A stretch of DNA of 64,000 bases, taken from Pseudomonas hefeiensis. Lineage in GTDB: Bacteria; Pseudomonadota; Gammaproteobacteria; Pseudomonadales; Pseudomonadaceae. The stretch is from positions 4,030,001 to 4,094,000 of the forward strand of contig NZ_CP117449.1 of assembly GCF_030687835.1 (NCBI RefSeq), given 5' to 3'. The notes beneath the pieces were generated by a model. That model saw only the letters and a program-made list of their open reading frames with translations, was not told the DNA's origin and searched no databases. A program made the position numbers and the translations under genes. Below are positions 43,757 to 63,260 of the stretch, one piece after another (position 1 is the stretch's first letter; each line of letters opens with the position of its first letter).

Positions 43757-43760
43757 ATGC

Positions 43761-44864: not shown

Positions 44865-44941
44865 TTTTATTATCTCTTGAACCGCGTGTCGCAAAAGCAC
44901 CGACAACTGAGATTGTCGGTGCTTTTCAGAGAGTCTTAGCG

Positions 44942-46303: not shown

Positions 46304-46315
46304 GTTCAAGTCCTC

Positions 46316-48019
46316 TTAGAAAGTGCTCTTGATAGAGAAGGCCAGGTAATCCCGATCTTTAAATGATTGCTTATAATTAAACTGGCTGGCCTCATTGAGC
46401 GTAGTGTCAGATGGACCGTAATAATGTGTGTACGTCAAACCACAAGTGACACGATCAAGGTAGGTGGCGGTTACACCGATATTGAAATCACCACCTTTAT
46501 CAGGACCGAAAGCGCCAACTACTGCCGACTTACCCATAGGGAAGTAGCTGACACCTAGCGGAACACCAAGATCGACGCCCGGGAAGACCTGACGATAAGT
46601 TGGTGTATACACCAACTTGAGCCCTACCCCGTCATCTGTAGCATTCGGATCCAGTGCTGATCGGTTTTCAGTAACCTTCAACAAACGGTTCCAGGCAATT
46701 TCACCGATCAAGCTGGCCTCATTGGATATGAAAGTTGGCTCGAGAGATGCGAGCACGTTCAAATTCACGTGGGCAGTCCGCCCGACCGCGTAAAGTGGAT
46801 GATTGTCATTGTCAGCGTCTACATCTGGCAGTACGACCTGACCATTCGATACCAGGGGCATATTCCAGCGCATAGACGCTTCCCCGGCAAAGTTATACTC
46901 ACCCACTGACGTGGTAAAACTTGCGCCCAGTGCGCGTATATCCTCCGGATACACCCAGAAGAACTCACCTACTTGTCCGGTTGCAAAATTAGGGGCGCCT
47001 ACGCCAGGACGGAGGTACAACTGCGGGGTTTTATCATGGTATTGGATAGCATAAAGCCCGTAATCAACAGTTTCAGCTGCATAGCGTAACTGCAGGCCAC
47101 CCTGTCCAGAACTCCGGGCTTTTTTGTCCTTACCATGAAAAAAGGCCGCAGGGCTGCTTGGATTACCACCGAGAAAATCAGGGAATGGCTCCCCGACAAT
47201 CAGGCGCTCAGCCCCCTCTCCCATCATGTCGAGGGTGGAAAAATAGCTACCCGCCGCAGGTAATCGTGTTTCTTCCCACTCAAACTGATAGAACGCACCC
47301 AACGAAAGCGCATCAGTAAGTTGGTAGGAAGTAGACAACTGACTAACTGGTCTGGTGATTTCCTTGAACTGGGTGTTGGGTACTGAGATAGCCTTTACCA
47401 CGTCCACCGGAGCCATTCCGCCAGCAATCCCGTTGGCCCCGAAAAACAGACTTTCCCCCCAAATCAGGCCATGCCGACCCAAACGAAAGGACAAAGCTCG
47501 ATCCGCAACTTCACCATTCCAATAGACGAATGCATCTAATAACTCACCATCACCGCCGTGCAGATGTCGAGTGTCATCAGTGAATTCATCATAGGCAACC
47601 GAAACCTGATTCGCGCGCGCGGGGTTGTTGTTATCGTTGTCCTTCTGGTATTCGGTGTCGAACCAGGCTGCTCCGCTTAGACGACCACCAAAATTACGGT
47701 AACCGATATCCATTTCCGAGAGCAGGTCAAAACGGTTAGAGATAAGGCCCTTATCAAAAGCACGGTCACCGTCATCCTGGTTCAGGCTAACTTCGCTTTT
47801 CGAAAGCTTGCTGCTTGGGTCCTTCAGACGCCATGCAGAACTATACTTGAGGGTGTTATCCCAGCGTGCACTAAGATCATTGTCGCCCGTATCAATTTGA
47901 AATGCACTGGCACTCATCGATATCACACTCAGCGCACCGCCTGCTAGAACGCATGATAGGAACTTTGGCCGCCCTGAAGGCGACGGATATGAGTACGCAG
48001 TAGACTTTATTACACGCAT
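46316..48019 (-). CDS. DUF1302 outer-membrane protein
   Basis: A 567-aa beta-barrel-like protein of the DUF1302 family. It has a signal peptide (LAGGALSVISMSASA), then FQIDTGDNDLSARWDNTLKYSSAWRL, and ends with aromatic KSTF typical of outer-membrane barrels. It probably forms the outer-membrane pore for a hydrophobic substrate with the DUF1329/RND partners. AAAGAGG precedes the ATG. It is the first gene of the cassette; the palindromes at 48156 and 48425 lie upstream. Confidence 0.88.
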   Translation of the reverse strand: MRVIKSTAYSYPSPSGRPKFLSCVLAGGALSVISMSASAFQIDTGDNDLSARWDNTLKYSSAWRLKDPSSKLSKSEVSLNQDDGDRAFDKGLISNRFDLLSEMDIGYRNFGGRLSGAAWFDTEYQKDNDNNNPARANQVSVAYDEFTDDTRHLHGGDGELLDAFVYWNGEVADRALSFRLGRHGLIWGESLFFGANGIAGGMAPVDVVKAISVPNTQFKEITRPVSQLSTSYQLTDALSLGAFYQFEWEETRLPAAGSYFSTLDMMGEGAERLIVGEPFPDFLGGNPSSPAAFFHGKDKKARSSGQGGLQLRYAAETVDYGLYAIQYHDKTPQLYLRPGVGAPNFATGQVGEFFWVYPEDIRALGASFTTSVGEYNFAGEASMRWNMPLVSNGQVVLPDVDADNDNHPLYAVGRTAHVNLNVLASLEPTFISNEASLIGEIAWNRLLKVTENRSALDPNATDDGVGLKLVYTPTYRQVFPGVDLGVPLGVSYFPMGKSAVVGAFGPDKGGDFNIGVTATYLDRVTCGLTYTHYYGPSDTTLNEASQFNYKQSFKDRDYLAFSIKSTF

Positions 48020-48671: not shown

Positions 48672-49575
48672 TTAAAATTTAAACATTCCATTGAGCATCA
48701 CTGTGTCGCCTTCCGAAGTATTTCGAGCATAAACATCTTTTTGATAGCCGAGTACTACTCCAAAATCCCGACTTGCGTAACCCACTTGCGGGCCGACCTT
48801 TATGGATCTTGTTCGATTACCTATATCATCCCCCGTGGGACTGGTCATCATTCAACTGAGTCGACAAATATCCACCAATACCTGCCAGCCAATTCTGGGT
48901 CAGCCGATAGTTAAATCCATAGTCTGCAACGACCTGCACTCCAGATTTATAGTCAGTCTTTGGATTTTCGTAGCTATAGTTGACACTGATCTTCGAGCTG
49001 ACCTCAACTTGAGGCATTGGAAACCACGTAAAGGCGTAAGCAGCATAAATTGCCTTACTATTGTTTCCTGGATTAATCAAGGCGTGTTCATCATATTTCC
49101 CCCAAGGCGCTACAAAATCCAACTCCAGGTTATGAAGATAGGTTGGAGACTGCCAGCTGACCAAGGCACCGAATAATGGGTCGCCCATTCCATTCGAGGA
49201 GTCTCTACCAAATGCTCCCAATGCAGGAATATCCAGGTGACCAGCAACGTAAGGAACTGCGAGCTGCAATGAGACGTTCCCGCCAAGTAGTGTTGGCCCA
49301 TCAAGCGTGTGTACTAATCTCAAAGCATGCGAGTGAACTCTTCCTTTAGCCTTTTGAAATACCTTATTTCCTTGCCCATCTCGAATCGAATCTATGGCAA
49401 CGGTTTTATTGTATGTATAGGCATGGGTTTCACCTGGAGCACCTACTGCCCCACTCATGACAGTTACAATACCCAATGGATAACTGGAAGCACCTCCTTC
49501 AAGCGCCATCGAGTTGGCGGCAAGTAGCAATACACCCAAAAAAATCACCAGGCGAAAATCAGCTGGAGTCTTCAT
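48672..49575 (-). pseudogene. Phenol-degradation MetA/SphA-like outer-membrane channel, frameshifted
   Basis: The frame from ATG 49575 encodes a signal peptide (FLGVLLLAANSMA) then EGGASSYPLGIVTVMSGAVGAPG, characteristic of the MetA-pathway-of-phenol-degradation/SphA family of outer-membrane proteins. It stops early at 48826. A run of five C on the plus strand (48830-48834) with one base removed lets the frame continue through VGPQVGYASRDFGVVLGYQK and end NGMFKF at 48672, the aromatic end expected for a barrel. So the gene carries a one-base insertion, or the tract varies or was misread. Confidence 0.75.
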
Positions 49576-49652
49576 CACACGTTCCTTTCTTGTTTTTGTT
49601 TTTGGCAATGGAAATTGACGCAGTCAAATAACATAAGGATTTGCCAAAAATC

Positions 49653-50012
49653 CTATGGATGCGGCTCTTCCAGTAAAAATATTTCTTTCATCTCAGTAAT
49701 TTCCAAACTCACAGGTGTCAAACGCAAGCCGGTACAGGGGCCTTTTATGCACAAACCCGAACTAATTTCAAACAACGCACCATGACCACTACAAACGATA
49801 TGACTGGACTCGCTGTCGAGATATCGATTCTTGCGAACTGGCATAGTTGAACCGGGCCAATGGGGACAAGAATTTTTATAGCCATAGATATTTCCGCCGT
49901 CATTGACTAAAAATATGTCGTCGGGACCTGTGCTTTCCTTTCTAAACCCCAAAGATTGGCCTGGCGCAATTTGCTCGAGATGGCAAAGCCTGCGGCGATC
50001 AGATTTTGCCAT
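49653..50012 (-). CDS. Rieske-type [2Fe-2S] ferredoxin
   Basis: A 119-aa single-domain Rieske protein. The cluster motif is CPH (49-51) and CSGH (74-77), with GYKNSCPHWPG ahead. It is of the NirD/NdmA-like small ferredoxin class and could carry electrons to a ring-hydroxylating oxygenase or have a protective role beside the extradiol dioxygenase. The start was taken at ATG 50012; an upstream in-frame start would overlap the dioxygenase gene. It lies 20 bases after that gene. Confidence 0.85.
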   Translation of the reverse strand: MAKSDRRRLCHLEQIAPGQSLGFRKESTGPDDIFLVNDGGNIYGYKNSCPHWPGSTMPVRKNRYLDSESSHIVCSGHGALFEISSGLCIKGPCTGLRLTPVSLEITEMKEIFLLEEPHP

Positions 50013-50031
50013 CTTCAACTTACCCCCCTTA

Positions 50032-50958
50032 TTAATCAGACTTGCCGCCAGGAGCCCATTTTTCACGCCATTGGAACAGGAACACCTGGGAGTTATCCAT
50101 GATTGCAGGAGCTACGCGCGGCGACCAGTCATCGTCGTGCTGATCCATATCGGCGTCGTACTCGATGTGGCAGCCCAATGGGGTATTGAAGTACCAGAAC
50201 CAGTTAGACCCAAACTTATGTCGCCCCGGCCCCCAATATGACTCATAACCTTTAGCTGCAAACGCATAGCCGGCTTGCAGTACTTCCTGAGGCCCCCCCA
50301 TATGGAAGGTAAAGTGCTCGCATCCCTGCAAATGCGGCGGGGTTTGAATGAAGAAAAGCGTGTGGTGGTCGAAAGTACCCGCAGGACGCAGAAATGGACC
50401 CATCCCGACAAATTTGTCGGTGAGTTTGAAGCCCAGACGATCCGCATAGAAGCGCTCGGCCTTTTCGATATCTGGAACGAAATAAACAACGTGGGAGAGC
50501 GTTCGTGGCTTGGGGGCGAGCTCGGAACTTTCATCCACACCGGTTTTGTTCGCAGGACGGTGAATATCTCCCGGCGCGTTTACGCGCTCGGCGGGCAGTT
50601 TGTGCGGCTTTCTGATCGAAACTTGAAAGCCCAGAGCGAATCCGAGATCGTCCACTAACTCCAGCGAACCATCGGCCAGAACCTTGACTTCACGCTCGCC
50701 CTCGAATTCCTTCCGGATGCTCGCGAGAGTCGCGATGTCTTTTACGCCATACATTGTCTTGCGCAACATGTTTGCGGTCGGCAAATTCCAGGCAGGGAGC
50801 GACGGATCGTCACGATGCTTGATAACTACACCAGTTCCATCCAATGCTTCAAAGCGTCCGGCCCCTACCGGCTCAAGGCCGTAATCTTCCAAGAAGCGCT
50901 CACTGAGCGCGACATCGTCAACACCAAAATACAAAGTGTCCGGTCCAAGGATGTTCAT
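50032..50958 (-). CDS. Extradiol ring-cleavage dioxygenase (VOC family)
   Basis: A 308-aa two-domain vicinal-oxygen-chelate protein. The second half has RTLSHVVYFVPDIEKAERFYADRLGF (first metal His), FDHHTLFFIQ (second His) and GCHIEYDADM (Glu), the usual 2-His-1-Glu iron site of catechol 2,3-dioxygenase-type enzymes. The first half retains the fold but not the ligands. AGGT precedes the ATG at 50958. It is followed by the Rieske ferredoxin and preceded by an FAA hydrolase, as in a meta-cleavage pathway. Confidence 0.88.
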   Translation of the reverse strand: MNILGPDTLYFGVDDVALSERFLEDYGLEPVGAGRFEALDGTGVVIKHRDDPSLPAWNLPTANMLRKTMYGVKDIATLASIRKEFEGEREVKVLADGSLELVDDLGFALGFQVSIRKPHKLPAERVNAPGDIHRPANKTGVDESSELAPKPRTLSHVVYFVPDIEKAERFYADRLGFKLTDKFVGMGPFLRPAGTFDHHTLFFIQTPPHLQGCEHFTFHMGGPQEVLQAGYAFAAKGYESYWGPGRHKFGSNWFWYFNTPLGCHIEYDADMDQHDDDWSPRVAPAIMDNSQVFLFQWREKWAPGGKSD

Positions 50959-51053
50959 TTCAACACCTATCAAAGAATGCGTTTTTCTTATGTCAGGCCA
51001 GAACCATTGCCGGGCCTGAGATCTCTGATGCGCGCGTGAGTTTCAAATACACG

Positions 51054-52052
51054 TCACATGAATGGCTTGCGCTCTTCAGGCCACCATAGACCGGAAATAG
51101 GTTGTCCCATCTTGTTGCGCAGAGTTCCGACGCCATCAACGATAATTTCGACGACATCACCGGGCTGGAGCCTACGATCGAGCTCCAAAGCTGAACCACC
51201 GCCCATCGTACCCGAGCCGATTACATCGCCCGGCACGATGGCTTCACCAAGGCTAGCCCAGGCAATCAGCTCGCCAATTGTCCAAAGTTTATTGGAGCTG
51301 TCACCCTTACCCCAAGTCTCGCCATTGACGCGGACTTCCATGCCGATCCGGTCCAAATCTTTGAATTCATCGACGGTGGTAATCCAAGGCCCGATACCGT
51401 AGGCGAAGTCTTTACACTTGGTGGGACCCATCCCAATTGGCATTTCGACCGCCTGACAATCGCGGGCACTAAAGTCATTGAAGATGGTGATACCGAACAG
51501 GTGATCAAGCGCGTTTTCAGGGCGCAGACTTTCTCCACGCTTTCCGATGACGTAACCAAGCTCCAGTTCGTAGTCCATGTGCTGGATGTATCCTGGCCAC
51601 GGAACTTCCGCTTCATGCCCAATCACCGTATGCGGCGTACCTTTGAAATAGCCGGGCACCTTCAGAAGATTTGGAGTGGGCGGCTGGCCAATTTTTTCAT
51701 GGAAGCCTTTGATGTGGCCCACGAATGTCAGTCCATCTCGCACCACAGAAGGATCCGAGGCTGGCAACCACTGCACGCTATCGAATGAGATTGAATGTGC
51801 ATCTGGCCGCTTAGCATTGATCTTTTCTGCTGCCTCGATAAACGGCGTGCCCAATGCAATTGCCGCCGACATGCTGCCAGGGAAAACAGCATTTGCGTAT
51901 TGCAGAGCGCTTTCCCGGGAAGAACCGCCCTTGACCAGCTGCTCATGGAGCGCGCGCTTCAGGTCAATGACCCGATGCTCCTCTGGAACTACCAGCACCA
52001 AGCGGGCTTCCGCACCGTCGGGCCCGTTAACAGAAATTCGGCCTAGCTTCAT
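51054..52052 (-). CDS. Fumarylacetoacetate hydrolase (FAA) family protein 1
   Basis: A 332-aa FAH-superfamily enzyme with the N-terminal extension typical of the long form. Acidic metal ligands appear in YELELGYVIGKRG and FNDFSARDCQ, and the C-terminal GDVIGSGTMGGGSALELDR block is conserved. The family hydrolyses or isomerises C-C bonds of ring-fission products. It is directly upstream of the extradiol dioxygenase, so it probably processes its product. Palindrome site 52114 lies 62 bases ahead of its start. Confidence 0.88.
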   Translation of the reverse strand: MKLGRISVNGPDGAEARLVLVVPEEHRVIDLKRALHEQLVKGGSSRESALQYANAVFPGSMSAAIALGTPFIEAAEKINAKRPDAHSISFDSVQWLPASDPSVVRDGLTFVGHIKGFHEKIGQPPTPNLLKVPGYFKGTPHTVIGHEAEVPWPGYIQHMDYELELGYVIGKRGESLRPENALDHLFGITIFNDFSARDCQAVEMPIGMGPTKCKDFAYGIGPWITTVDEFKDLDRIGMEVRVNGETWGKGDSSNKLWTIGELIAWASLGEAIVPGDVIGSGTMGGGSALELDRRLQPGDVVEIIVDGVGTLRNKMGQPISGLWWPEERKPFM

Positions 52053-52113
52053 GTGATTTCCCTCTTTTTATTGACTTGAACGAGCCTGAATCAGCTTTGC
52101 AAGATTCAAAGCT

Positions 52114-52131
52114 AAACGACACGCACCGTTT
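52114..52131. promoter_or_regulatory. 18-bp palindrome, island operator site 3
   Basis: AAACGACACGCACCGTTT matches the 48425 motif at 15 of 18 positions. It lies 62-79 bases upstream of the FAA/dioxygenase operon start, in the divergent region shared with the TetR gene. Confidence 0.6.
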
Positions 52132-52254
52132 TGTAAAGAGCAAAAATCGGTACAATCTAGAAGATTTCGCTGCTACGCCAAGCTGTGGCGCAGACAGATC
52201 AGCAGGAGCCGGGAAGTGAAGCAGTCGGATTGATAATTTTGGCAGACAACAAAT

Positions 52255-52272
52255 ATACTAATCGTATCGTTT
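52255..52272. promoter_or_regulatory. 18-bp palindrome, island operator site 4
   Basis: ATACTAATCGTATCGTTT is a weaker match to the motif (13 of 18 to the 56925 site), 74-91 bases before the TetR start. This suggests autoregulation. Confidence 0.45.
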
Positions 52273-52345
52273 TGTTTCATTTATAAGTTCGTGCAATGAA
52301 TGATTGTCAGACCTTCTCCAGACCGCAGCGCCAAGGAACACATCA

Positions 52346-52942
52346 ATGCAGGTTAAGAAAACCTCAATGCCTACTGGACGCCCCCGTAGTGAAGCGACAC
52401 GCCGACTGATCCTGGATGCTGCTATCAGCCTCCTCCAGGACAAATCGATTCAAGCAATCTCTATCGAAGCGATAGCACGAGAGGCAGGAGTGAGTAAGGC
52501 GACCATTTATCGATGGTGGGAATCCAAGGCTTCCGTCGTGATCGATGCGTTTATCGAGCAACACTTGGTTAAAACAACGCTTCCTCGAGGCATGCGCCCA
52601 CGCGAGGCCATAACGCACCATTTCCGTTCTTTCGTAACGCAGTATTCAGGATGGCCCGGCCGGCTCGTCGCTCAAATTGTTGCTGAAGGTCAATCTGATC
52701 CAACCATCCATCGCGTCTTCCGTGAGCGATTTCATTACGGTCGAAGAGCAGTCGTCAGAGAGATGCTTGAAGAATGGAAAAAAAGCGGCGACATTTCAAA
52801 AGGTGCAGATGTCGAAGTACTCATGGATTTGATCTATGGGCCGGTTTATATGCGCCTGATGATAGGTCATGCCCCTCTGGACGAGTCCTTTGCTGAATCA
52901 CATATCAATTACATATGCGCATTGCTGGGCTCTAGATCCTGA
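52346..52942 (+). CDS. TetR/AcrR-family regulator of the catabolic island
   Basis: A 198-aa TetR protein. The HTH is clear: RRLILDAAISLLQDKSIQAI, SIEAIAREAGVSKATIYRWW, ESKASVVIDAF. The C-terminal half is a helical ligand-binding domain with GPVYMRLMIGHAPLDESF. ATG 52346 has AAGGAA nine bases upstream. It is the only plus-strand gene among the leftward catabolic genes and sits between two of their operons. It is the best candidate to bind the repeated 18-bp palindrome and respond to a pathway compound. Confidence 0.88.
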   Translation: MQVKKTSMPTGRPRSEATRRLILDAAISLLQDKSIQAISIEAIAREAGVSKATIYRWWESKASVVIDAFIEQHLVKTTLPRGMRPREAITHHFRSFVTQYSGWPGRLVAQIVAEGQSDPTIHRVFRERFHYGRRAVVREMLEEWKKSGDISKGADVEVLMDLIYGPVYMRLMIGHAPLDESFAESHINYICALLGSRS

Positions 52943-52967
52943 AAATCGCGATGATTACCATACTAAA

Positions 52968-52989
52968 AAGCCGGCCTTATGGCCGGCTT
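52968..52989. terminator. Bidirectional terminator
   Basis: A 9-bp perfect stem (AAGCCGGCC / GGCCGGCTT) with a TTAT loop, A-rich before and T-containing after, between the convergent TetR and BKACE genes. Confidence 0.75.
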
Positions 52990-53044
52990 GTGTATTTCAC
53001 AATACAGGGTGGGCCGTCTCTGGATGACCCTTATGAATACCGAA

Positions 53045-53971
53045 TTAGAAAGCAGTATTTGTCTTTCCTTTCAACGCGAGTATTTCCCTTGCCTCTTGAG
53101 GTGTAGCAATTTCAAACCCCAACTGTTCCACGATACTTCGGATTTTCCGCACTTGTGCGGCATTAGAAACCGCCAACTCACCGCGCCCGATGTACAAGCT
53201 ATCTTCAAGACCCACTCTGACGTTGCCGCCCATAATGGCCGCGAGAGTCGCTAGCGACATCTGGTCTTTACCTGCGCCCAATACTGACCAGTGATACTGA
53301 TCACCAAATAGACGATCTGCGGTTCGCTTCTGATGCATCACATCTTCGATATGAGCCCCCATGGCACCACGCAATCCAAAAATTGTCTGGATGAACAATG
53401 GCGGCTTAACCAGTCCTTTATCCAGGAAATACTTCAGCGTGTACAAGTGGCTGACGTCGTAACACTCGAACTCAAAGCGGGTACCGGTATCACCAATGGT
53501 TCGCAGGATCCATTCGATATCGGAAAAAGTATTGCGGAAGACCAGATCCTTTGTGGCATTAAGATGCTCCACTTCCCAGCTGTAACGCCACTCTCGATCC
53601 TTGCTGGCCATTTCGGAAAGGTTGAGGTTTATAGACCCCATGTTCAGGGAGCACATTTCCGGCTGTAGCGCTACACCCGCCGCCGCACGCTCGCTAATTG
53701 CCATTCCTGGGCCACCACCGCCCGTAGAAATGTTCACGATGGCATCCGTTTCGGCCTTAATTCTCGAGACGAATTGACGAAAGATTTCAGGGTCGCCAGT
53801 GGGACGACCATCCTCAGGGTTTCGGGCGTGAAGATGAACGATCGCCGCTCCCGCTTTTACCGCTTCGATCGCCTGATCGCCAATCTCCTGAGGAGTAACC
53901 GGGAGATGAGGAGACATCGACGGCGTATGTGCCCCGCCCGTAATAGCGGCGGTTATTATAATTTTTCTCAC
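53045..53971 (-). CDS. Beta-keto acid cleavage enzyme (BKACE/DUF849)
   Basis: A 308-aa TIM-barrel enzyme of the Kce/BKACE family, which cleaves a beta-keto acid with acetyl-CoA to give acetoacetate and a CoA ester. Diagnostic parts are KIIITAAITGGAHTPSMSPHLPVTP, the zinc motif VHLHAR (His46, His48), VNISTGGG and the GLEDSLYIGRGELA end. Start and stop overlap the cupin gene by four bases. In the context of ring-cleavage genes it may finish off a beta-keto product. Which substrate cannot be told from the sequence by eye. Confidence 0.9.
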   Translation of the reverse strand: MRKIIITAAITGGAHTPSMSPHLPVTPQEIGDQAIEAVKAGAAIVHLHARNPEDGRPTGDPEIFRQFVSRIKAETDAIVNISTGGGGPGMAISERAAAGVALQPEMCSLNMGSINLNLSEMASKDREWRYSWEVEHLNATKDLVFRNTFSDIEWILRTIGDTGTRFEFECYDVSHLYTLKYFLDKGLVKPPLFIQTIFGLRGAMGAHIEDVMHQKRTADRLFGDQYHWSVLGAGKDQMSLATLAAIMGGNVRVGLEDSLYIGRGELAVSNAAQVRKIRSIVEQLGFEIATPQEAREILALKGKTNTAF

Positions 53972-54510
53972 AGTTCTTCTCCTTCTTTCAGCGCTAACAG
54001 GACGAACAGCATTCGACAGTTACGCCCGGAACGATTCGACCAACTGTGGTTGGTTGCGCGCTGTACCAGTACGTCTCCTGGCCGCATAACGGTCTCACCG
54101 TGATCCATCATCGCGACAATCTCGCCCTCGAGTACCACGGCGTAATCAAGGGATTGCGTTTTGTGGAACCAGAAATGTCGAGGCTTTTTCTTGTCGCGCA
54201 CACCTTCACTTTCAAGAAATTCCACCAACTTTTCCTGGTCATAAACTTCATCTGGCGGGAAGTCGACTATTCGAAGAAGCGAACCCTCATCAGAATGAAA
54301 ACCAAATTTGTGTCCGGCTGGCGCTGGATCCAAACCGCCCGCACGCCCAACACCGGTTGCCCAGACGACCTGTGCAACCGGCTTACCAGCTTGTGCCAGA
54401 ACATTTGGTGTATTGGCGTCACTGGTGATAATCGACTCACCAGCTTCGTTGTGACCAGTGACAATCCTCCGTACTGGCTTATAAGCCACTTCGGTAATGT
54501 TATTCATCAT
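53968..54510 (-). CDS. Cupin-domain protein
   Basis: A 180-aa single cupin. The conserved barrel is visible as KPRHFWFHKTQSLDYAVVLEGEIVAMMD, GETVMRPGDVLVQRATNHSW and NRSGRNCRMLFVLL. Metal ligands His (HKTQSLDYA with a His-Lys-Thr turn) and His in NHSW fit a modified cupin metal site. It is coupled to the BKACE gene. It may be an isomerase, dioxygenase or regulator; the family does not decide. Confidence 0.8.
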   Translation of the reverse strand: MMNNITEVAYKPVRRIVTGHNEAGESIITSDANTPNVLAQAGKPVAQVVWATGVGRAGGLDPAPAGHKFGFHSDEGSLLRIVDFPPDEVYDQEKLVEFLESEGVRDKKKPRHFWFHKTQSLDYAVVLEGEIVAMMDHGETVMRPGDVLVQRATNHSWSNRSGRNCRMLFVLLALKEGEEL

Positions 54511-54520
54511 GCAACCTCAA

Positions 54521-54538
54521 AAACGGTTCGTTTAGTTT
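54521..54538. promoter_or_regulatory. 18-bp palindrome, island operator site 5
   Basis: The minus-strand reading AAACTAAACGAACCGTTT matches both the 48425 and the 56925 sites at 15 of 18 positions. It lies 11-28 bases ahead of the cupin start, so bound protein could block initiation from a promoter there. Confidence 0.55.
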
Positions 54539-54561
54539 CGGTATTAATCAAATTTTTTGAG

Positions 54562-55032
54562 TCATACCGCCTTTAGGCGACTCACTGGCATAACCACAAA
54601 TGTTGCTGACGAACTGGCGATCAGCACTTCTCGCTGAGGGTCATGAAGTTCGGCCCTGGCGAACGCAATTTGACGACCCACACGTTCAACTGTTGCCTTT
54701 GCTTTCAACAACGATGGCTTCGCAGCCGCCTGCATATTCACCGTAATGCTGGTAGTGGCACAGGTTTGCCCACAGGGCAGCGTGCTGAGTACTGCAAAAG
54801 CCATGGCATAGTCGAGCATGGTCATCAATGTGCCACCGGATACAACGCCATTTCCCTGAAGGGATGTTAATGGCGCTTCGAAACTAAGTTCGACAATGCC
54901 AAAGCCGCCATTAACCAACCTCGCGCCAAGTGCACTTAATCCAGCAGTCAATTCAAACGGGATGTCAAATTGGGCCTCTGAAATAGCACGCTCCAAAAAA
55001 GCTCGGTCTGGGTTGTCAATGATTTTTTGCAC
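54562..55032 (-). CDS. PaaI-type hotdog-fold thioesterase
   Basis: A 156-aa hotdog protein of the PaaI/YdiI type. The central helix and turn GNGVVSGGTLMTMLDYAMAFAV carries the usual Gly-rich GG…D active-site region, and ITVNMQAAAKPSLLKAKATVERVGRQIAFARAEL is the typical sheet. It would hydrolyse an acyl-CoA in the cytoplasm. It follows the FAA gene by 11 bases. Together with BKACE it suggests that CoA esters occur in this pathway. Confidence 0.88.
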   Translation of the reverse strand: MQKIIDNPDRAFLERAISEAQFDIPFELTAGLSALGARLVNGGFGIVELSFEAPLTSLQGNGVVSGGTLMTMLDYAMAFAVLSTLPCGQTCATTSITVNMQAAAKPSLLKAKATVERVGRQIAFARAELHDPQREVLIASSSATFVVMPVSRLKAV

Positions 55033-55043
55033 AAGACGTTACC

Positions 55044-56033
55044 TCAACCTGAATGACTGATGCAGTTCTGCCGTTGCGCACCCAGTCCGGCAATTGTGCC
55101 AACCATAATGTCGCCGTCGCGCAAGAAACGATTGTAATGAGTTCCATTACCTGCAGGGGAGCCTGTACAAATCACATCGCCGGGCAATAGCTTTGCGTAC
55201 TTCGTGATGTATGCGATTTGTTGTTCAATCCCAAAAAGCATATCTGCCGTCGTCTCATCCTGCATTGTTTTGCCGGACACTGTCAGTTGCATCGAGAGGT
55301 TGTGGGGATCTTCAACGAACTGCTTGGGAACCAGATACGGACCAAGCGGAAGAAAGCCTGGCTGCCCTTTCGATCTGAGCCAGTCAGTACCGAGCATCTT
55401 GTAATCAGTGCGTGGAATGAGGTCGCGAGCCGAAATGTCATTGACGATTGTGTAACCGGCTACATAATCCATGGCATCTTCCACACGGATATTGTACCCC
55501 TCCTTGCCTATCACTACGGCCAACTCTAGCTCCCAGTCAGGCTTGCTGGTAGTGGGAGGAAGAACCAAGTCGTCATAGGCTCCCGAAATGGCAGAGACGG
55601 GCTTGGTGAATACATAGGGTTCTCCATTAGCGACCCTGTCATCCATCATGTCTTCAGCCCAAGTCCTCAATTCTTCCTTGCTTAGCCCTTCTGGACCGAC
55701 ATTTGAATCGACGGTCAAATCCACTACATGCTTTCGATAGTTTGCGCCTGTGCAGAACACTTGACGCGGCAGATCAACTGCAGGGCGAAACGTGAGTTGA
55801 TTTTCATCATACCAGGACGACGTAATGACTTTATTGACAATCGATTCGAGCGCGGCGTAACTGGCATTCCAGTTTTCAAGTAGAGACAGCACACTTTTTT
55901 CTCGGAGAATATCAACTCCGAACTCCTCAGCCACGCGACTGACTGGGATAACCTTTGCGTCAATAACCAGGCCAGCAAAGCGTTGCTGTGGATTGGCTTT
56001 TAAAGAAAATGTACCGAGCGAGAACTTCTTCAA
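55044..56033 (-). CDS. Fumarylacetoacetate hydrolase (FAA) family protein 2
   Basis: A 329-aa FAH-superfamily enzyme. Acidic ligands lie in DWELELAVVIGKEG and NDISARDL; the catalytic-domain block PGDVICTGSPAGNGTHYNRFLRDGD is present. I favour a TTG start at 56031-56033, five bases after GGAGG and just past the stop of the upstream gene; a longer frame from ATG 56081 would overlap that gene by 35 bases. It is divergent in sequence from FAA protein 1, so the two probably act at different steps. Confidence 0.85.
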   Translation of the reverse strand: MKKFSLGTFSLKANPQQRFAGLVIDAKVIPVSRVAEEFGVDILREKSVLSLLENWNASYAALESIVNKVITSSWYDENQLTFRPAVDLPRQVFCTGANYRKHVVDLTVDSNVGPEGLSKEELRTWAEDMMDDRVANGEPYVFTKPVSAISGAYDDLVLPPTTSKPDWELELAVVIGKEGYNIRVEDAMDYVAGYTIVNDISARDLIPRTDYKMLGTDWLRSKGQPGFLPLGPYLVPKQFVEDPHNLSMQLTVSGKTMQDETTADMLFGIEQQIAYITKYAKLLPGDVICTGSPAGNGTHYNRFLRDGDIMVGTIAGLGAQRQNCISHSG

Positions 56034-56046
56034 GTGTACCTCCGAA

Positions 56047-56892
56047 TTATTGTAAGAATGAGCCGTCGACAACTTGCTCATAGGTAAAATCCGCGCCGGG
56101 CAACCCTAGCAACGCCCTCTGCCCAATAAGAAGCTCAAGACCCTCGCGAGAAGGCGTCAGCGTTTGAGGAAATGTATTCACCATTGCTTTTACTGCTTCG
56201 ACAGGCATGCCAAGCAGCTCCAAAGCCTCTGTCAGCTTTACCGTGTCGCCAGGCATGGTCGTAAGTGTTGCGCTGAGGATGCGTACCCACGCTTTCAGCG
56301 CGTCATTCGCCTGACTCGCCGACTTCCTCACGACCAGTCCTTGACCAGGAAAATTGGTAAATACACCCTGAATCGTTGCAATAGTCTTGAGTCCCCGCTG
56401 AACCGCCATAGTGTCGAACGGTGGCCCGAGCAAGGTCGCATCACCCTCCCCCGCAACAAGAGCCGCAAACCGCTCACGCACCCCGCCAACGGGTGTCAGG
56501 CGATAATCGTCAGCGCGGAGCCCTGCTTCCTTGAGTAGCGCTCGAAGGGCAATGACAAAACCGTTCTCGGGGGCGTCCACCAGAATGTTGGCACCGCGCA
56601 AATCTGCAGGAGCGGATAGTGCCGAGGAACCGACCAGTTGTAACGGCGTGGTGGTTTCAATCTGAGCAATCACCACGAAGTCTTGTGGACCTTGCCGGCG
56701 GTTCCAGTGCAAAACGTTGTCGATTGACGTTACGACCGCGTCGACCTCTCCTGCACAGAGTGACGAGTACTGCTCATCAGACGATTGAGTCATCGAAGAC
56801 TCGATACGCAAATCCGCCGGCGTTTGCCACGAGGCTGATACCGCAATAGCAGGAGGGACAAACCACATCACTCGAAGAGAGTCGTTAGACAT
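56047..56892 (-). CDS. Periplasmic-binding-fold (NMT1/SsuA-like) protein without signal peptide
   Basis: A 281-aa protein with the type-2 periplasmic binding fold: MWFVPPAIAVSASW, LCAGEVDAVVTSIDNVLHWN, IAQIETTTPLQLVGS, LRGANILVDAPENGFVIALRALLKEAGL, LVAGEGDATLLGPPFDTMA. The N-terminus MSNDSLRVMWF has no signal peptide, so it is expected in the cytoplasm, and no ABC permease or ATPase is nearby. 4,5-dihydroxyphthalate decarboxylase has the same fold, and the neighbouring oxygenase and reductase are of the phthalate type, so a decarboxylase is possible. Palindrome site 56925 precedes it. Confidence 0.8.
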   Translation of the reverse strand: MSNDSLRVMWFVPPAIAVSASWQTPADLRIESSMTQSSDEQYSSLCAGEVDAVVTSIDNVLHWNRRQGPQDFVVIAQIETTTPLQLVGSSALSAPADLRGANILVDAPENGFVIALRALLKEAGLRADDYRLTPVGGVRERFAALVAGEGDATLLGPPFDTMAVQRGLKTIATIQGVFTNFPGQGLVVRKSASQANDALKAWVRILSATLTTMPGDTVKLTEALELLGMPVEAVKAMVNTFPQTLTPSREGLELLIGQRALLGLPGADFTYEQVVDGSFLQ

Positions 56893-56924
56893 TTTTTATT
56901 CTCGTTGAAATTACCCCACATATA

Positions 56925-56942
56925 AAACTATACGTACCGTAT
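56925..56942. promoter_or_regulatory. 18-bp palindrome, island operator site 6
   Basis: AAACTATACGTACCGTAT matches the 48425 motif at 14 of 18 positions and lies 33-50 bases upstream of the binding-fold gene, overlapping where a promoter would sit. Confidence 0.6.
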
Positions 56943-56988
56943 TGTCAACGAGGCGACCATCACTTGATTAAGCCGTCAGAAGGGGGTA

Positions 56989-57948
56989 TTACAGGTCTAA
57001 CACCATACGAGGTGTCTTGCTTCCCGAGCAGCAGACAAAAAGCGTCTTGCCTGCCTGCTTTTCCGCCTCGCTGAGAATTGAATCGCGATGGTCTGGCGTG
57101 CCCTCAAGCACCCGCACTTCACAAGCACCACAGATGCCTTCGCGACAGGAATGCATCATCTCAACACCGTTTTCAATCAGCGCATCGAGTATGCTTTTGC
57201 CCTGCTCCATCCTGAGAGTCTTCCCGGTCCTCGCCAGTACGATCTCATACCCACCCGACGTCGCGGCTTCCTGCAGCGGTATAAAGCTCTCGAAGTGAAC
57301 CCTGCCATCAGAGATGGACAGCGCCTTTGCTTGCTCGGAATAGACCTGAATCATCCCAGCCGGCCCACAACAATAGTAATGTCGGGCTCCATCATCACCA
57401 CGGAAAACCTCCTGAATGTGAGCGACGGTAGCCTCCACGTCGTACCCCAACAGCAACTGGACCTTGTCCTGGGTGATGTGGCCTTGCATCGCGTCGATCA
57501 ACGCGGCGTGGTTAACACTACGAGCGAAGTAATGCAGCTCCCAGTCCATTTTTTTGCTATTCAAGTACTGCGCCATACACCAAAGCGGCGTAACCCCTAT
57601 CCCACCCGCGATCAGCACAGAACGGTGCTCGCCTTCAGCAAGGGGGAACAGGTTTCTTGGCTCACTGACCTGCAACCTGTCCCCAGGACGCAAGCGTTCG
57701 TGAATCATGATCGATCCACCACGACTTTTAGGGTCTTTGGCTACCGCTATGACGTAACGATTTCTCTCGGAAGGATCGTTCAGCAAGGAGTAACTACGCA
57801 GAGGAATACCCTCTGCAATGACGTCAATGTGCGCCCCTGGAGTAAATGCAGGAAGCGTCACACCCTCCAGCCCTTTTAGCTCATACGCCAGTACCCCATC
57901 TGCCTCATGGGTGACTGATTTGATGTACACCTGGAATGTGTTTGGCAT
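56989..57948 (-). CDS. PDR/VanB-type oxygenase reductase
   Basis: A 319-aa phthalate-dioxygenase-reductase-type flavoprotein with FMN, NAD(P)H and C-terminal plant-type [2Fe-2S] domains. FMN binding: PLRSYSLLNDPSERNRYVIAV. NAD: LIAGGIGVTPLWCMA, YYCCGPAGM. The cluster: CREGICGACEVRVL plus a later FVCC. It passes electrons from NAD(P)H to the oxygenase encoded 85 bases upstream. Electron-transfer order is that known for the family. Confidence 0.93.
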   Translation of the reverse strand: MPNTFQVYIKSVTHEADGVLAYELKGLEGVTLPAFTPGAHIDVIAEGIPLRSYSLLNDPSERNRYVIAVAKDPKSRGGSIMIHERLRPGDRLQVSEPRNLFPLAEGEHRSVLIAGGIGVTPLWCMAQYLNSKKMDWELHYFARSVNHAALIDAMQGHITQDKVQLLLGYDVEATVAHIQEVFRGDDGARHYYCCGPAGMIQVYSEQAKALSISDGRVHFESFIPLQEAATSGGYEIVLARTGKTLRMEQGKSILDALIENGVEMMHSCREGICGACEVRVLEGTPDHRDSILSEAEKQAGKTLFVCCSGSKTPRMVLDL

Positions 57949-58033
57949 TTCGCAACCTAGCCCGAACCATGGATTGTTAGTGGAGCGTTCGGCCGCCAGC
58001 TCATCGAGCTGACGGCCTGACGGGCTGACGGGC

Positions 58034-59281
58034 TCAGAGATAAGTCATTCTGCGTTCTTGACGCTTCTGCTCCGTGTAGTCCTGAATGACGGTCCCAACA
58101 GGAATCATGTCAGCCAACGCTCTCAATGAACGGTAGTCGCTCGCCTGCGCCTGGACGCTGTCTTCATTGGCTTCCGATTGACGAATCCGCTCCATCAATT
58201 CACGCCGTAAACGGACAATTGCGAGATCCCCGCTACCCAGGAACTCTCGCGTCCGATCGACAATGGGAATGCTCTCGGCAACGGCGTAATCCTCAAAAAT
58301 AACGCCCGGAACACCTGTCCAGCTCCGACCGGCACGCATTGCTTCGCGATCTTGCCCATAGTTGAGAAGACCTTGGCGGGACGCTGCGAAGTTGTCGTCG
58401 GACTCATCAGTACCATCCAGCGCGAAATCCGGGAGGTTTTCATCGATAGGTTGGCGCGAATCCCAATAGACATACCACTGAAGACTGCGCGTATTGTTAA
58501 CCGGCACTACGATGATCAGAAATCCCGCTTCTTGTTCGGTGGTACCAATGAACGCGCTCGCCGGTGCTACAAACTCGGTCACCCGAAGGTAGTCCTGCTC
58601 CTGACCCGTGGTGCGCAACGAATACGACCGTAAGCCATACGGCTTGCTCTCGAGCGTGTACTTGGGGGTGTCGTTGCCAGTGACGAGCTGGAGCCCGGCC
58701 TGGGGAAGCTCCGGGTTCGCCGTGGTGTCATGGTGCAGCAGTCCGATATGGGCCGAGTCCATTAACGTTTCGACGTTTTGCAACCAGTTCGCTTCGTTGT
58801 AGGAAGCCCGCGGTCTGGCGTGCTTACGATCAAAATAGGTGAATGCATAATCAGTGAAGGCCGGCGCTTCGCCCTCACCCAAGTACACCCAGACAATACC
58901 GCCACCCTCTCGCACCTCGAACCCTTGCCCCTTTACTTTTTTGCAAAAAGCCTGGTCCTTCTCGGTTGGCATTTTGGTGCAGTTGCCCTGCGTGTCAAAA
59001 CTCCAGCCGTGGAAGATGCAAGTCAGGCGGTTACCTTCATTTCTACCGAGCGCGAGCGAAACGCCGCGATGGGGACATGCCTCATGGAGGAATCCGACAT
59101 GACCATCATCCGCGCGAAAGGCGACATATTTTTCGCATAGCAATTCGACACGTTGTGGCGTTCCTCCCGGCTCAAGCGCCTCACTGCGCAGCGCTGGAAT
59201 CCATTGTCTTTTCCAATACCTGTGCAGAGGTGTGCCAGGGGAAACGTCCGTCAGCAGGCGGTTCTGTTCAGCGGTCAGCAT
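58034..59281 (-). CDS. Rieske non-haem iron oxygenase, phthalate-dioxygenase type
   Basis: A 415-aa single-component oxygenase subunit. The start MLTAEQNRLLTDVSPGTPLH is like the phthalate 4,5-dioxygenase group. Rieske ligands are ACPHRG and CIFHGW; the catalytic iron site is LMDSAHIGLLHHD (Asp, His, His). This subfamily performs ring dihydroxylation or O-/N-demethylation. It pairs with the reductase next to it. Palindromes in 59282-59400 precede it. The substrate is unknown, but hydroxylation to a catechol would feed the extradiol dioxygenase. Confidence 0.93.
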   Translation of the reverse strand: MLTAEQNRLLTDVSPGTPLHRYWKRQWIPALRSEALEPGGTPQRVELLCEKYVAFRADDGHVGFLHEACPHRGVSLALGRNEGNRLTCIFHGWSFDTQGNCTKMPTEKDQAFCKKVKGQGFEVREGGGIVWVYLGEGEAPAFTDYAFTYFDRKHARPRASYNEANWLQNVETLMDSAHIGLLHHDTTANPELPQAGLQLVTGNDTPKYTLESKPYGLRSYSLRTTGQEQDYLRVTEFVAPASAFIGTTEQEAGFLIIVVPVNNTRSLQWYVYWDSRQPIDENLPDFALDGTDESDDNFAASRQGLLNYGQDREAMRAGRSWTGVPGVIFEDYAVAESIPIVDRTREFLGSGDLAIVRLRRELMERIRQSEANEDSVQAQASDYRSLRALADMIPVGTVIQDYTEQKRQERRMTYL

Positions 59282-59327: not shown

Positions 59328-59372
59328 AAAACTATCTTAATAACAAAGTATCTCAGTCTTTAAGATAGTTTT
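59328..59372. promoter_or_regulatory. Inverted repeat AAAACTATCTTAA in divergent promoter
   Basis: AAAACTATCTTAA (59328-59340) and its exact inverse TTAAGATAGTTTT (59360-59372) are spaced by 19 bases in the region between the oxygenase and the MarR gene. It differs from the 18-bp island motif, so the oxygenase operon may be under the MarR protein instead. Confidence 0.6.
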
Positions 59373-59562
59373 AGGCTATTCTCGCTTTTAGAGCTCGTCA
59401 AGAAAATTCGTTAGCATGTTAACGCTTTGCCGTGAGCGCTCCGTCGACTTCCGTGCACTGAGGTTCATCGCCTCAATGACAGCCCTTGCAGCGCCATAGC
59501 TGCAGGGCACACCCGGTTCACACTGAGGTATGATCACCTCAAAGCCACCTGATGGATTTTGC

Positions 59563-60126
59563 ATGAGCGATTTATTGTTTCCTGCCGCCAGCCCTGAGGC
59601 CGTTGCGCAAGCATGGCGTAACGAACGTCCGGATCTGGATCACCATGGATTGGCGATTACACTCCGAATCCGAAGCCTCGCCATGTTGATCGATCACCAC
59701 ATAGAGGTAATCGCGGACGACCTTGAGCTGGGGATGAAGGATCTCATGCTGCTGTTCGCTTTACGGCGAAGCGGCCCGCCTTACTGCATGCGCCCTACCG
59801 ATGTCTTTCGTCTGCTGAAGGTGACGTCGGGCGCCGCCACCTATCGAGCGGACAAATTGGTAGAACGCGGCGTCGCCAACCGTATTCCCGATCCACGTGA
59901 TCGCCGAGGCCAATTGATTCAATTGAGTGAGGAAGGGATGCGTTTGGTAGATGTCGCTATCACCCGTCTGGCGGACTCGAGTTCAAAATGCCTCGATTCG
60001 CTCGATAGCAAAGAAGGTGAGCTTGATCAGATTGGCCATCTGTTGCATTCGTTGGAGGCCGGGTGGATGGAGATTACTCCCCTTAGTGAAAACCCGCTCG
60101 CACGCTCTGACGATTCTGGTCTGTGA
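59563..60126 (+). CDS. MarR-family regulator
   Basis: A 187-aa winged-HTH protein. MSDLLFPAASPEAVAQAW starts it; the DNA-binding part is LFALRRSGPPYCMRPTDVFRLLKVTSGAATYRADKLVERGVANRIPDPRDRRGQLIQLSEEG with the MarR wing DPRDRRG. It is divergent from the oxygenase gene and faces the 45-bp inverted repeat, a typical arrangement for local repression by MarR proteins. The ATG at 59563 gives a better start than the frame opening at 59530. Confidence 0.85.
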   Translation: MSDLLFPAASPEAVAQAWRNERPDLDHHGLAITLRIRSLAMLIDHHIEVIADDLELGMKDLMLLFALRRSGPPYCMRPTDVFRLLKVTSGAATYRADKLVERGVANRIPDPRDRRGQLIQLSEEGMRLVDVAITRLADSSSKCLDSLDSKEGELDQIGHLLHSLEAGWMEITPLSENPLARSDDSGL

Positions 60127-60185: not shown

Positions 60186-60608
60186 TCAGGGCTTGATCTT
60201 TTTAAGATCTTCGAGTAATTCGAGCAGTTTCTGCAATTTTTTCTCACCAAACTGCCGCTGGATCTCGAGGTAATTGCGCTCCATCCCTTCGCTCATCGAC
60301 AAAAAGCATTCATGCCCTTGCTCGGTCAGATTGAGGAAAATGCGGCGCTGATCTTCAGCCGATTTCCTGCGAATGACCAGGCCGTCGCGTTCCAGGCGCT
60401 TGAGCACACCACTCATGCTGGGCTTTAGAATACAAGCCTGATGTGCCAACTGATGACTTTCCAGTTCGCCCTGTTGGCGAAGAATTCGGATGACTCGCCA
60501 CTGCTGCTCGGTCAAGTCATGATCGTTCAGACCAGGACGGAAAAACGTCATAACCGCTTCGCGAGCCTGGAGCAAAGTGAGTGTCAGGGAAGGTCTGGGA
60601 TTGGGCAT
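60186..60608 (-). CDS. hpaR: Homoprotocatechuate operon regulator HpaR (MarR family)
   Basis: A 140-aa MarR protein. LTLTLLQAREAVMTFFRPGL then LTEQQWRVIRILRQQGELES is the characteristic HpaR/HpcR sequence, followed by the wing KSAEDQRRIFLNLTEQG. HpaR represses the homoprotocatechuate meta-pathway genes and is relieved by pathway aromatics. The start was set at ATG 60608. It is beside hpaA and the hpaG genes, as expected. Confidence 0.92.
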   Translation of the reverse strand: MPNPRPSLTLTLLQAREAVMTFFRPGLNDHDLTEQQWRVIRILRQQGELESHQLAHQACILKPSMSGVLKRLERDGLVIRRKSAEDQRRIFLNLTEQGHECFLSMSEGMERNYLEIQRQFGEKKLQKLLELLEDLKKIKP

Positions 60609-60733
60609 ATTGAGTGGACTATGTGAACCAGCCAACAGCTTACGGTTGGTGCTTCAGTAGCGCAACCGGCTGGAGGTCGCCGCGCACCTGTCCCCAGAAA
60701 CAACCCCGCGGCAGTCACCCTAAATACAGGTCA

Positions 60734-61636: not shown

Positions 61637-61753
61637 CACACATTTCTCATTTTTCTTGTCCCGACATCCCCCGCCCCCATGGTGCACTCGTTGCGAGTAA
61701 ATCGCCATGACCGATAAGGCGCTTGACGATCATTAACATATTAATTATAACGA

Positions 61754-61763: not shown

Positions 61764-61813
61764 ACAATAATTAGGCCGGAGACCTCCCGTCCCGCCACTG
61801 CCAGGAGAGAAGC

Positions 61814-63255: not shown

Positions 63256-63260
63256 ACATT

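Follow-up and report, generated by a model that had tools for sequence, protein, structure and literature searches.

A conserved TetR-linked gene cluster of Pseudomonas hefeiensis proposed as a BKACE-containing branch of flavonoid-type A-ring meta-cleavage

Overview

A stretch of 64,000 nucleotides from the Pseudomonas hefeiensis genome (contig NZ_CP117449.1; hereafter the window) contains a gene cluster whose TetR-linked core probably represents, at a rough probability of 0.6, an uncharacterised branch of the kind of flavonoid (or 5,7-dihydroxychromone-type) A-ring meta-cleavage found in the fde and ifc pathways, extended by a BKACE enzyme. The cluster is a real conserved catabolic unit; rather than an orphan, it forms a separate branch of a kind of system already published, and its proposed exit through BKACE was not met in the literature searched. 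Gene content, conservation, linkage and a common motif were observed directly. An earlier note on this DNA had described a catabolic extradiol cluster with BKACE and a thioesterase, and both proved to be conserved members. Its further claim, that the set matches no pathway that can be named, was not supported, as the core gene content is that of fde/ifc flavonoid A-ring cleavage. For the combination of BKACE and a thioesterase, which the note had remarked on as unusual in a meta-cleavage setting, no description in an fde/ifc-like system was found in titles and abstracts.

Gene order and conservation

On the minus strand the genes follow one another in the order Rieske oxygenase, reductase, NMT1-like gene, FAA1, thioesterase, cupin, BKACE, FAA2, VOC dioxygenase and Rieske ferredoxin, with a divergent TetR gene between BKACE and FAA2 (Table 1). 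Downstream of the ferredoxin the run continues with a Phenol_MetA_deg gene, followed by DUF1302 and DUF1329 genes, and a divergent MarR gene is located at the opposite end. All genes listed by the earlier note are present as complete open frames at the positions it gave, including its VOC boundary of 50032-50958 (open frame 50032-50973, ATG at 50958); the two divergent regulators and the Phenol_MetA_deg, DUF1302 and DUF1329 genes are additions to that list. The likely start of the Rieske ferredoxin is an ATG near 50012, and an alternative GTG start of FAA1 near 56039 would remove its overlap with the NMT1-like gene.

With the NMT1-like protein as query, one search of the species-representative genomes yielded ten related loci (L003-L012), each of which by construction has that gene. 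All ten belong to Pseudomonas, including P. jessenii, P. batumici, P. ovata and P. inefficax, and gene order is kept among them as NMT1-like identity falls from 99% to 52%. Such conservation means that the association between the genes exceeds chance. The twelve window proteins compared have counterparts of 95-100% identity in L003 and L004, save the TetR protein in L003 (87%), a closeness that suggests a host near P. jessenii. It can be observed that FAA1 adjoins the NMT1-like gene in 10/10 loci, that thioesterase, cupin and BKACE are each found in nine (not L010), VOC in eight and FAA2 in five, and that a Rieske ferredoxin lies beside VOC in seven and a Phenol_MetA_deg gene after the VOC region in eight. 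The L008 stretch is cut off within FAA2 at one end and within a reductase-like gene at the other, so that its VOC gene and an oxygenase gene may lie beyond.

In a survey of 398 Pseudomonas genomes, a VOC match (E 1e-60 or better) was found in 70, in two groups, one with 78-100% identity in 6 genomes and the other with no more than 65% in the rest. The NMT1-like gene (E 1e-40 or better) occurs in precisely the same 6 of the 398 genomes, on one contig with VOC and 2.0-6.3 kb from it. The contig of the core also carries the FAD monooxygenase (best match 57-100%) and BKACE (best match 72-100%) in 6/6 core genomes, the latter 32 kb off in G440. Outside Pseudomonas, a window-type core stands beside an fde/ifc-type cluster on a Paraburkholderia hospita plasmid typed as conjugative (L019, NZ_CP024940.1:606263-637186), an arrangement that suggests transfer between genera. 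A Bradyrhizobium elkanii plasmid (L018, NZ_CP126035.1) holds NMT1-like, VOC, FAA2, cupin, thioesterase and TetR genes within 18 kb.

Ring-cleavage enzymes and likeness to fde and ifc

From 227 matching records, nine plasmid regions were taken in which the VOC relatives show 55-70% identity; they contain an FAD monooxygenase (eight regions), FAA (eight), Rieske ferredoxin (seven), cupin (four), DUF1302/DUF1329/MMPL (three) and BKACE (two). The cluster is likened to flavonoid A-ring cleavage because this gene content resembles the published reports on fde and ifc. As far as the available parts of these reports go, the FdeE monooxygenase of Herbaspirillum seropedicae SmR1 acts with a Rieske carrier, FdeD, and FdeA is akin to proteins of phenol degradation (PMC8552027); FdeC takes part in ring cleavage (PMC8552027, PMC10755750). 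In Variovorax sp. V35, IfcA is an FAD monooxygenase that 8-hydroxylates isoflavones, and IfcB, which has a glyoxalase fold and shares 65.8% identity with FdeC, acts after IfcA in an assay that left residual substrate; the substrate of the IfcD cupins is 2-hydroxy-5-(4-hydroxyphenyl)-4H-pyran-4-one (PMC11069340).

In a tree of 23 VOC rows, the window protein and nine others form one clade (98/96), all of them NMT1-linked; its partners are eight Pseudomonas rows and one copy from the P. hospita plasmid. Among the 13 rows outside this clade are the second copy on the same P. hospita plasmid stretch, the second VOC of the P. hefeiensis genome (one gene, two rows) and that of Bradyrhizobium L018. 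The window VOC is 59-66% identical to six VOC proteins from fde/ifc-like loci (L013, L014, L015, the second copy of L019, L020 and L032).

An FAD monooxygenase of the PRK06847 kind is present in L005, L006 and L010. Its counterpart in the P. hefeiensis genome, C1:4110394-4111503, is 80% identical to that of L005. Its distance is 16 kb from the end of the window and about 29 kb from the VOC gene, and it is divergent from an OCD-DHDPS-aldehyde dehydrogenase set and near two TetR paralogues. Five window-kind Pseudomonas proteins are 49-86% identical to one another and 29-37% to seven proteins from other loci, with the L018 monooxygenase intermediate (41-43% to the window kind). Since IfcA and FdeE are themselves 36.3% identical, close to the distance between the two classes, the window class could conceivably be that of FdeE.

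BKACE, cupin, hydrolases and NMT1-like protein

The window BKACE exceeds the cut-off of NF053538 ("3,5-dioxohexanoate:acetyl-CoA acetone transferase"), as do the BKACE proteins of L005, L009, L012 and L019; those of L018 (230 bits) and the second one of the P. hefeiensis genome (L002, 206 bits) fall below it, and the L018 enzyme perhaps acts on another beta-keto acid. The HLH stretch of the window protein at 46-48 (an HxH) aligns with BKACE15, and its glutamate 169, within an FEFECYD stretch, aligns with E171 there. BKACE15, matched with 379 bits over nearly the full length, is the nearest characterised relative found, although two uncharacterised structures score higher. According to the available part of PMC11961710, BKACE15 from Paracoccus denitrificans (PDB 8RIO/8RIP/9HNF) was confirmed on 3,5-dioxohexanoate and 5-hydroxy-beta-ketohexanoate with E171 as the catalytic residue; its physiological role is stated there as unknown, and its genetic context is taken there as a hint of aromatic degradation. 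By analogy, the expected flavone or flavanone remnants would be aryl analogues of these substrates.

The cupin is 35-37% identical to cupins of the fde/ifc-like loci L014, L015 and L033, and its likely metal-ligand positions H112, H116, E128 and H155 are invariant in 12 rows. The best named relative of FAA1, matched well below the model's cut-off, is a 2,4-diketo acid hydrolase, a function which would fit an acylpyruvate chain. For the NMT1-like protein, the AlphaFold model displays a periplasmic-binding-protein fold, and since the first strand starts at residue 4 there is no signal peptide. The fold is near both transport proteins and enzymes (Thi5, MqnD, DszB); the "decarboxylase-fold protein" of the earlier note was therefore a fair guess, and decarboxylation as its function is likewise a guess. 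No Pht5 name appeared among its Pfam/NCBIfam or PDB sequence matches, a comparison that did not include the Pht5 sequence, and lack of the name among the fold matches does not argue for absence; what the two share is the binding-protein fold. FdeB may be an NMT1-like protein; if so, the window would stand closer to fde than is proposed here.

TetR-type motif and regulation

A TetR-type operator-like motif, WACGNNCCGTWTT, has five matches in the window, where 20 simulated sequences lead one to expect 0.05. The NMT1-like gene and the cupin gene are each preceded by one site and DUF1302 by two, while the fifth falls within the MMPL gene and may be due to chance. One match past the window lies between the FAD monooxygenase and OCD genes. 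It should be noted that the patterns were derived from the window and from L030, the stretch of the same genome past the window end, so that counts there are not independent, and that L003 and L004 differ little from the window. In ten loci outside the derivation set (L005-L012, L018 and L019, with L009 and L011 near copies of each other), the looser form gave 18 matches against 1.55 expected. When 14 matches were checked against predicted frames, five fell inside one; the frame is a real gene in two cases (L005:17125, L008:2853) and is spurious or too long in the other three.

The TetR protein of the window is the probable regulator of the core. Two TetR paralogues are found past the window, at L030:8531-9160 (73%) and L030:15689-16282 (70%). 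Neither the promoter region of the Rieske oxygenase nor the second fde/ifc-like locus of the genome (L032, L033) contains a match to the motif. Co-regulation finds support for the TetR part, which has the common operator-like motif, but not for the Rieske oxygenase and reductase, which have their own MarR gene and repeat and no motif.

Proposed pathway

From these observations we infer the substrate and all of the reactions, for which the following course is proposed. The FAD monooxygenase, with the Rieske ferredoxin, would hydroxylate the A-ring beside an existing hydroxyl, and the VOC dioxygenase would then cleave between C8 and C8a to give a lactone or pyrone bearing an acylpyruvate-like chain. 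During the third step, the weakest of the scheme, the FAA hydrolase or hydrolases, possibly together with the NMT1-like protein as a decarboxylase, would strip this chain as a C3-C4 keto acid. Subsequently, the cupin would open the leftover pyrone or lactone to a 3-oxo or 3,5-dioxo acid, which BKACE would cleave with acetyl-CoA into acetoacetate and an aryl-containing acyl-CoA, and the thioesterase would free the aryl acid. Our own chemistry, based on published formulae and structures, lies behind the assignment of the cleaved bond to atoms, the accounting for the C4 unit and the structure taken for noreugenin, a compound discussed below.

The masses in the available part of PMC11069340 have 8-hydroxydaidzein take up O2 to give a 301 ion and then lose a C4 unit, leaving a 4-pyrone. 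Arithmetic on the published formulae demonstrates that C10H10O3, a product of IfcD, equals the pyrone plus H2O minus CO2, that is, a decarboxylated beta-keto acid; the other IfcD product, C10H10O4, is not accounted for by that arithmetic alone. Naringenin is converted to a 3-oxo-delta-lactone, which is hydroxylated, opened and decarboxylated (PMC10755750, as far as available). Formation of a 3-oxo or 3,5-dioxo acid is implied, because the IfcD arithmetic and the decarboxylation of the naringenin lactone both point there, and acids of this sort are what BKACE enzymes split with acetyl-CoA. More tentatively, the C-ring remnant may be cleaved by BKACE and acetyl-CoA, with no loss by decarboxylation and no ATP-dependent ligase, in concert with a cytoplasmic decarboxylase of binding-protein fold; we consider this somewhat less likely than not. 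If it is true, the BKACE exit in effect reverses a step of type III polyketide synthesis, the extension that derives from malonate, and turns a 3,5-dioxo or 5-hydroxy-3-oxo acid into acetoacetate and an aryl-containing acyl-CoA.

The available text of PMC10755750 states that the Herbaspirillum enzymes past FdeE and FdeC await experimental verification, and that of PMC11069340 that the Variovorax gene for conversion of the ring-cleavage product to the pyrone is unidentified. The cluster supplies candidates for pyrone opening, beta-keto acid capture and CoA release. It also offers a physiological role for the BKACE type of BKACE15.

Weighing of the readings

Several observations weigh against an assignment to fde/ifc-type flavonoid cleavage. 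The kinship with fde and ifc rests on gene context and annotations taken from papers rather than on direct sequence identity, and the LysR activator of fde is replaced by TetR. The monooxygenase of the P. hefeiensis genome is 34-37% identical to those of fde/ifc-like loci, a distinct class whose substrate may differ. The best NCBIfam match of FAA1, 2,4-didehydro-3-deoxy-L-rhamnonate hydrolase, reaches 175 bits, far below the cut-off of 500. Among the loci, L012 has the BKACE block with no VOC within the flank and no motif match in the looser scan of ten loci. L010 has NMT1, FAA1, VOC and monooxygenase genes but no BKACE, cupin or thioesterase in the stretch examined, and BKACE is not obligatory since this core does without it. 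In L018, NMT1-like and BKACE genes are present, yet the VOC falls outside the window clade and BKACE below the NF053538 cut-off.

The monooxygenase difference also speaks for the strongest alternative, in which the same ring-cleavage chemistry acts on a non-flavonoid substrate such as a 2-alkylchromone (e.g., noreugenin), an alkylresorcinol or another acylated polyphenol. The remnant of noreugenin would be exactly 3,5-dioxohexanoate. The BKACE belongs to the type that is named for 3,5-dioxohexanoate and has been tested on substrates with short alkyl groups, and the genome already possesses a separate fde/ifc-like locus at 2.406-2.429 Mb, so that the window locus perhaps serves another compound. 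However, the window VOC still shares 59-66% identity with the six VOC proteins of fde/ifc-like loci, and a non-flavonoid substrate is regarded as rather unlikely, if the best of the alternatives. For orcinol and 2,4,6-trioxoheptanoate, the literature matches and the available part of PMC12442788 gave nothing usable, and no aerobic gene cluster for catechin or taxifolin was recognised among the literature matches listed (best 20 of 113).

A phthalate or methoxyaromatic route would begin with the Rieske oxygenase, followed by decarboxylation of a dihydroxyphthalate-like diol by the NMT1-like protein and then extradiol cleavage. The oxygenase does resemble phthalate dioxygenase and LigXa: its best PDB matches are 7fjl (2.1e-54) and 7fhr ("Putative Phthalate 4,5-dioxygenase"), and it carries a LigXa_C domain, a CxH...CxxH Rieske motif and a DSAHIGLLHH mononuclear-iron stretch, while the NMT1-like protein is in fold like DszB and MqnD. 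Nevertheless, the gene is present with only 5/10 related cores and, at E 1e-100 or better, in 3/6 core genomes and in G497, a genome among the 398 with no NMT1-like gene, VOC match or monooxygenase. Oxygenase, reductase and MarR travel together in L003, L004, L009, L011 and L012, and a reductase fragment is the sole remnant of the unit in L006. Between the MarR and oxygenase genes lies the inverted repeat AAAACTATCTTAA / TTAAGATAGTTTT, by sequence a probable MarR operator, with shorter diverged versions (8-9 bases) at the equivalent position in L009, L011 and L012; the promoter lacks the TetR motif. With a MarR gene and an inverted repeat of its own, and present beside half of the cores, the unit is separable. 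MarR is probably the regulator of this unit only, and the unit is most likely a peripheral add-on, acting as an O-demethylase or extra hydroxylase. Since the phthalate route also leaves cupin, BKACE and thioesterase unexplained, it was rejected as the core pathway and is judged improbable. That the "phthalate-type" oxygenase defines the cluster is not supported, while an FAD monooxygenase of the type with which the published pathways begin is on the core contig in all six core genomes. The idea that the Rieske oxygenase substitutes for the monooxygenase arose from L005, L006 and L010, where the stretch examined contains the latter but lacks the former; it was dropped, as the monooxygenase is found in 6/6 core genomes, including the three with Rieske genes.

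An accessory branch of 4-hydroxyphenylacetate (hpa) catabolism was considered in view of the hpa-type genes next to the cluster, namely MarR, AraC and two FAA halves at 60186-63255. Similar FAA pairs lie within the flanks of L003, L004, L006 and L007. Shortly after the window end comes a p-hydroxyphenylacetate 3-hydroxylase pair; in L007 a pair of this kind immediately precedes the core and is probably part of the hpa genes there. With a VOC score of 47.5 bits against HpaD (cut-off 321.4) and no such FAA pair within the flank in 6/10 loci (L005, L008-L012), this reading was rejected as the principal one and is judged very improbable. Coumarin catabolism was rejected as following a different route, through xenA and mhp (PMC13181038, available part).

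Coordinates and neighbouring genes

Table 1. Features of the cluster and its surroundings (window positions; L numbers denote related loci).
Feature	Position	Strand	Evidence or remark
MMPL/RND-type transporter	41294..43810	-	65-68% to annotated MMPL transporters of L013, L015, L020
YCF48-related protein	43761..44906	-	41-46% to counterparts in L013, L015, L020
DUF1329 protein	44942..46309	-	Pfam 410 bits
DUF1302 protein, first gene of probable uptake/envelope operon	46316..48019	-	Pfam 442 bits
TetR-type operator-like sites upstream of DUF1302	48167, 48436		
Outer-membrane "phenol meta-pathway" protein, FdeA position	48826..49608	-	Phenol_MetA_deg 126.8 bits
Rieske-type ferredoxin, FdeD position	49653..50066	-	Pfam Rieske 33.7 bits; CxH...CxxH
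VOC-superfamily extradiol dioxygenase, FdeC/IfcB gene context	50032..50958	-	Glyoxalase/dioxygenase Pfam; LSHVVY, DHHTLF, HIEYD stretches
FAA-family hydrolase 2 (FAA2)	51054..52052	-	FAA_hydrolase 183.5 bits
Operator-like site (looser pattern), between TetR and FAA2	52261..52273	+	Same promoter region in L004, L005, L006; beside TetR/VOC in L009
TetR-family regulator, divergent from FAA2	52304..52942	+	TetR_N, TetR_C_11
BKACE	53045..53971	-	NCBIfam NF053538 501.1 bits (cut-off 430)
Cupin; candidate for opening the pyrone/lactone, on the model of IfcD	53968..54510	-	Cupin_2
Operator-like site upstream of cupin gene	54520..54532	-	Counterparts in L003, L004, L005, L006, L008
Hotdog-fold thioesterase, 4HBT kind	54562..55032	-	Pfam 4HBT 43.9 bits; TIGR00369 43.9 bits (cut-off 36.6)
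FAA-family hydrolase 1 (FAA1), candidate acylpyruvate/C-C hydrolase	55044..56081	-	FAA_hydrolase 211 bits
NMT1-like protein, substrate-binding-protein (SBP) fold; weak candidate decarboxylase	56047..56892	-	
TetR-type operator-like site, upstream of NMT1-FAA1-4HBT-cupin-BKACE run	56931..56943	+	Counterparts in L003, L004, L007, L008, L009, L011
Oxygenase reductase, NAD-binding and C-terminal 2Fe-2S	56989..57948	-	Pfam Fer2, NAD_binding_1
Rieske non-haem iron oxygenase, LigXa/phthalate-dioxygenase type	58034..59281	-	LigXa_C 103.8 bits (cut-off 27), Rieske 66.5
Inverted repeat, 13-base arms, between MarR and Rieske oxygenase	59328..59372		Predicted MarR operator
MarR-family regulator, divergent from Rieske oxygenase gene	59530..60126	+	Pfam MarR_2/MarR

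The counterparts of the YCF48 gene are annotated as YCF48-related in L013 and L020 and as hypothetical in L015. Next to the transporter, a 646-aa open reading frame (39153-41093, minus strand) is 39% identical over 135 residues to the chemoreceptor adjoining the Azospirillum cluster L013; a chemoreceptor likewise adjoins the core in L010. Chemotaxis toward the pathway substrate is possible. At the other side, window 60186-64000 and L030:1-8023 hold the hpa-type genes (MarR, AraC, two FAA halves) and then the two-component p-hydroxyphenylacetate 3-hydroxylase pair.

Between the two TetR paralogues, L030:8531-16282 (C1:4102531-4110282) contains genes for an OYE-type reductase, an SDR, an MFS transporter, a c-type cytochrome and an FAD_binding_4 oxidase, the last two as a flavocytochrome-like pair, and for a 153-aa protein with no Pfam match. 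Upstream oxidation of a flavan or alkylphenol is a possible role for them. OCD, DHDPS-family and SSADH-like genes follow at L030:17917-20000 and L031:49-1563, divergent from the FAD monooxygenase. This triple recurs by L005, L008, L009, L011, Bradyrhizobium L018, Roseomonas L017 and the second locus, and a DHDPS match of at least 69% was found in 5/6 core genomes. For 5-deoxy A-rings, the DHDPS protein might serve as a hydratase-aldolase.

The second fde/ifc-like locus of the genome, C1:2406349-2428932 (L032:12349-18000, L033:1-16932), comprises a 2,6-dihydroxypseudooxynicotine (DHPON) hydrolase-like gene, VOC (59-61% to that of the window), DUF1302, DUF1329, YCF48, MMPL, MFS, cupin, FAA and epimerase genes, together with two LysR genes, OCD, DHDPS, aldehyde dehydrogenase and FAD monooxygenase; a TetR gene lies just outside. 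The best solved relative of its hydrolase is 2,6-dihydroxypseudooxynicotine hydrolase, a likeness also noted for ifc. Both of the two BKACE genes of the genome lie outside this locus. One Pseudomonas genome has two flavonoid-type loci.

Comparison with known systems

The fde system (naringenin, Herbaspirillum) is like the window cluster in its FdeA-type outer-membrane protein, Rieske carrier and FAD monooxygenase, and the window has a VOC-type enzyme in the FdeC position. It has a LysR activator, FdeR (PMC10799723, available part), whereas the window has TetR and a TetR-type motif, and the window cluster is not filed as an fde operon because TetR takes the place of that activator. The monooxygenase gene of the window genome is distant from the dioxygenase gene (about 29 kb), and BKACE, thioesterase, NMT1-like protein and Rieske oxygenase are not named for fde in the parts of the literature accounts consulted. 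As far as the accounts available go, TetR genes, the SBP-fold enzyme candidate, the second FAA, the thioesterase and a BKACE above the cut-off for the 3,5-dioxohexanoate type distinguish the window from both fde and ifc. The ifc system (isoflavones) shares the FAD monooxygenase and, by fold family and gene context, the glyoxalase-fold dioxygenase, and it has a pyrone-acting cupin of which the window cupin is a candidate counterpart (PMC11069340); its 2,6-dihydroxypseudooxynicotine hydrolase-like protein has no counterpart in the window cluster but has one in the second locus, and no BKACE is named for ifc in the available part of that paper. For phthalate dioxygenase and LigXa, the likeness is limited to the Rieske oxygenase of the peripheral unit and does not extend to the core.

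Among the matches listed for BKACE/DUF849 literature (titles and abstracts, with subscription papers mostly outside), no aerobic flavonoid ring-cleavage cluster with BKACE was found; the BKACE-related papers PMC10470551 and PMC13134046 both concern, in the parts available, anaerobic routes. BKACE15 and the window BKACE have the catalytic glutamate stretch in common, the window enzyme being located in an fde/ifc-like setting. The triacetate acetoacetate-lyase of Clostridium scatologenes converts triacetate to acetoacetate and acetoacetyl-CoA (PMC10470551, available part). Unlike the window cluster, the Clostridium phloroglucinol route proceeds through anaerobic reductive opening by a cyclohydrolase with no oxygenase (PMC10470551); like the enzyme proposed here, its lyase is of the BKACE family and cleaves a 3,5-dioxo acid that originates from the ring of a polyphenol.

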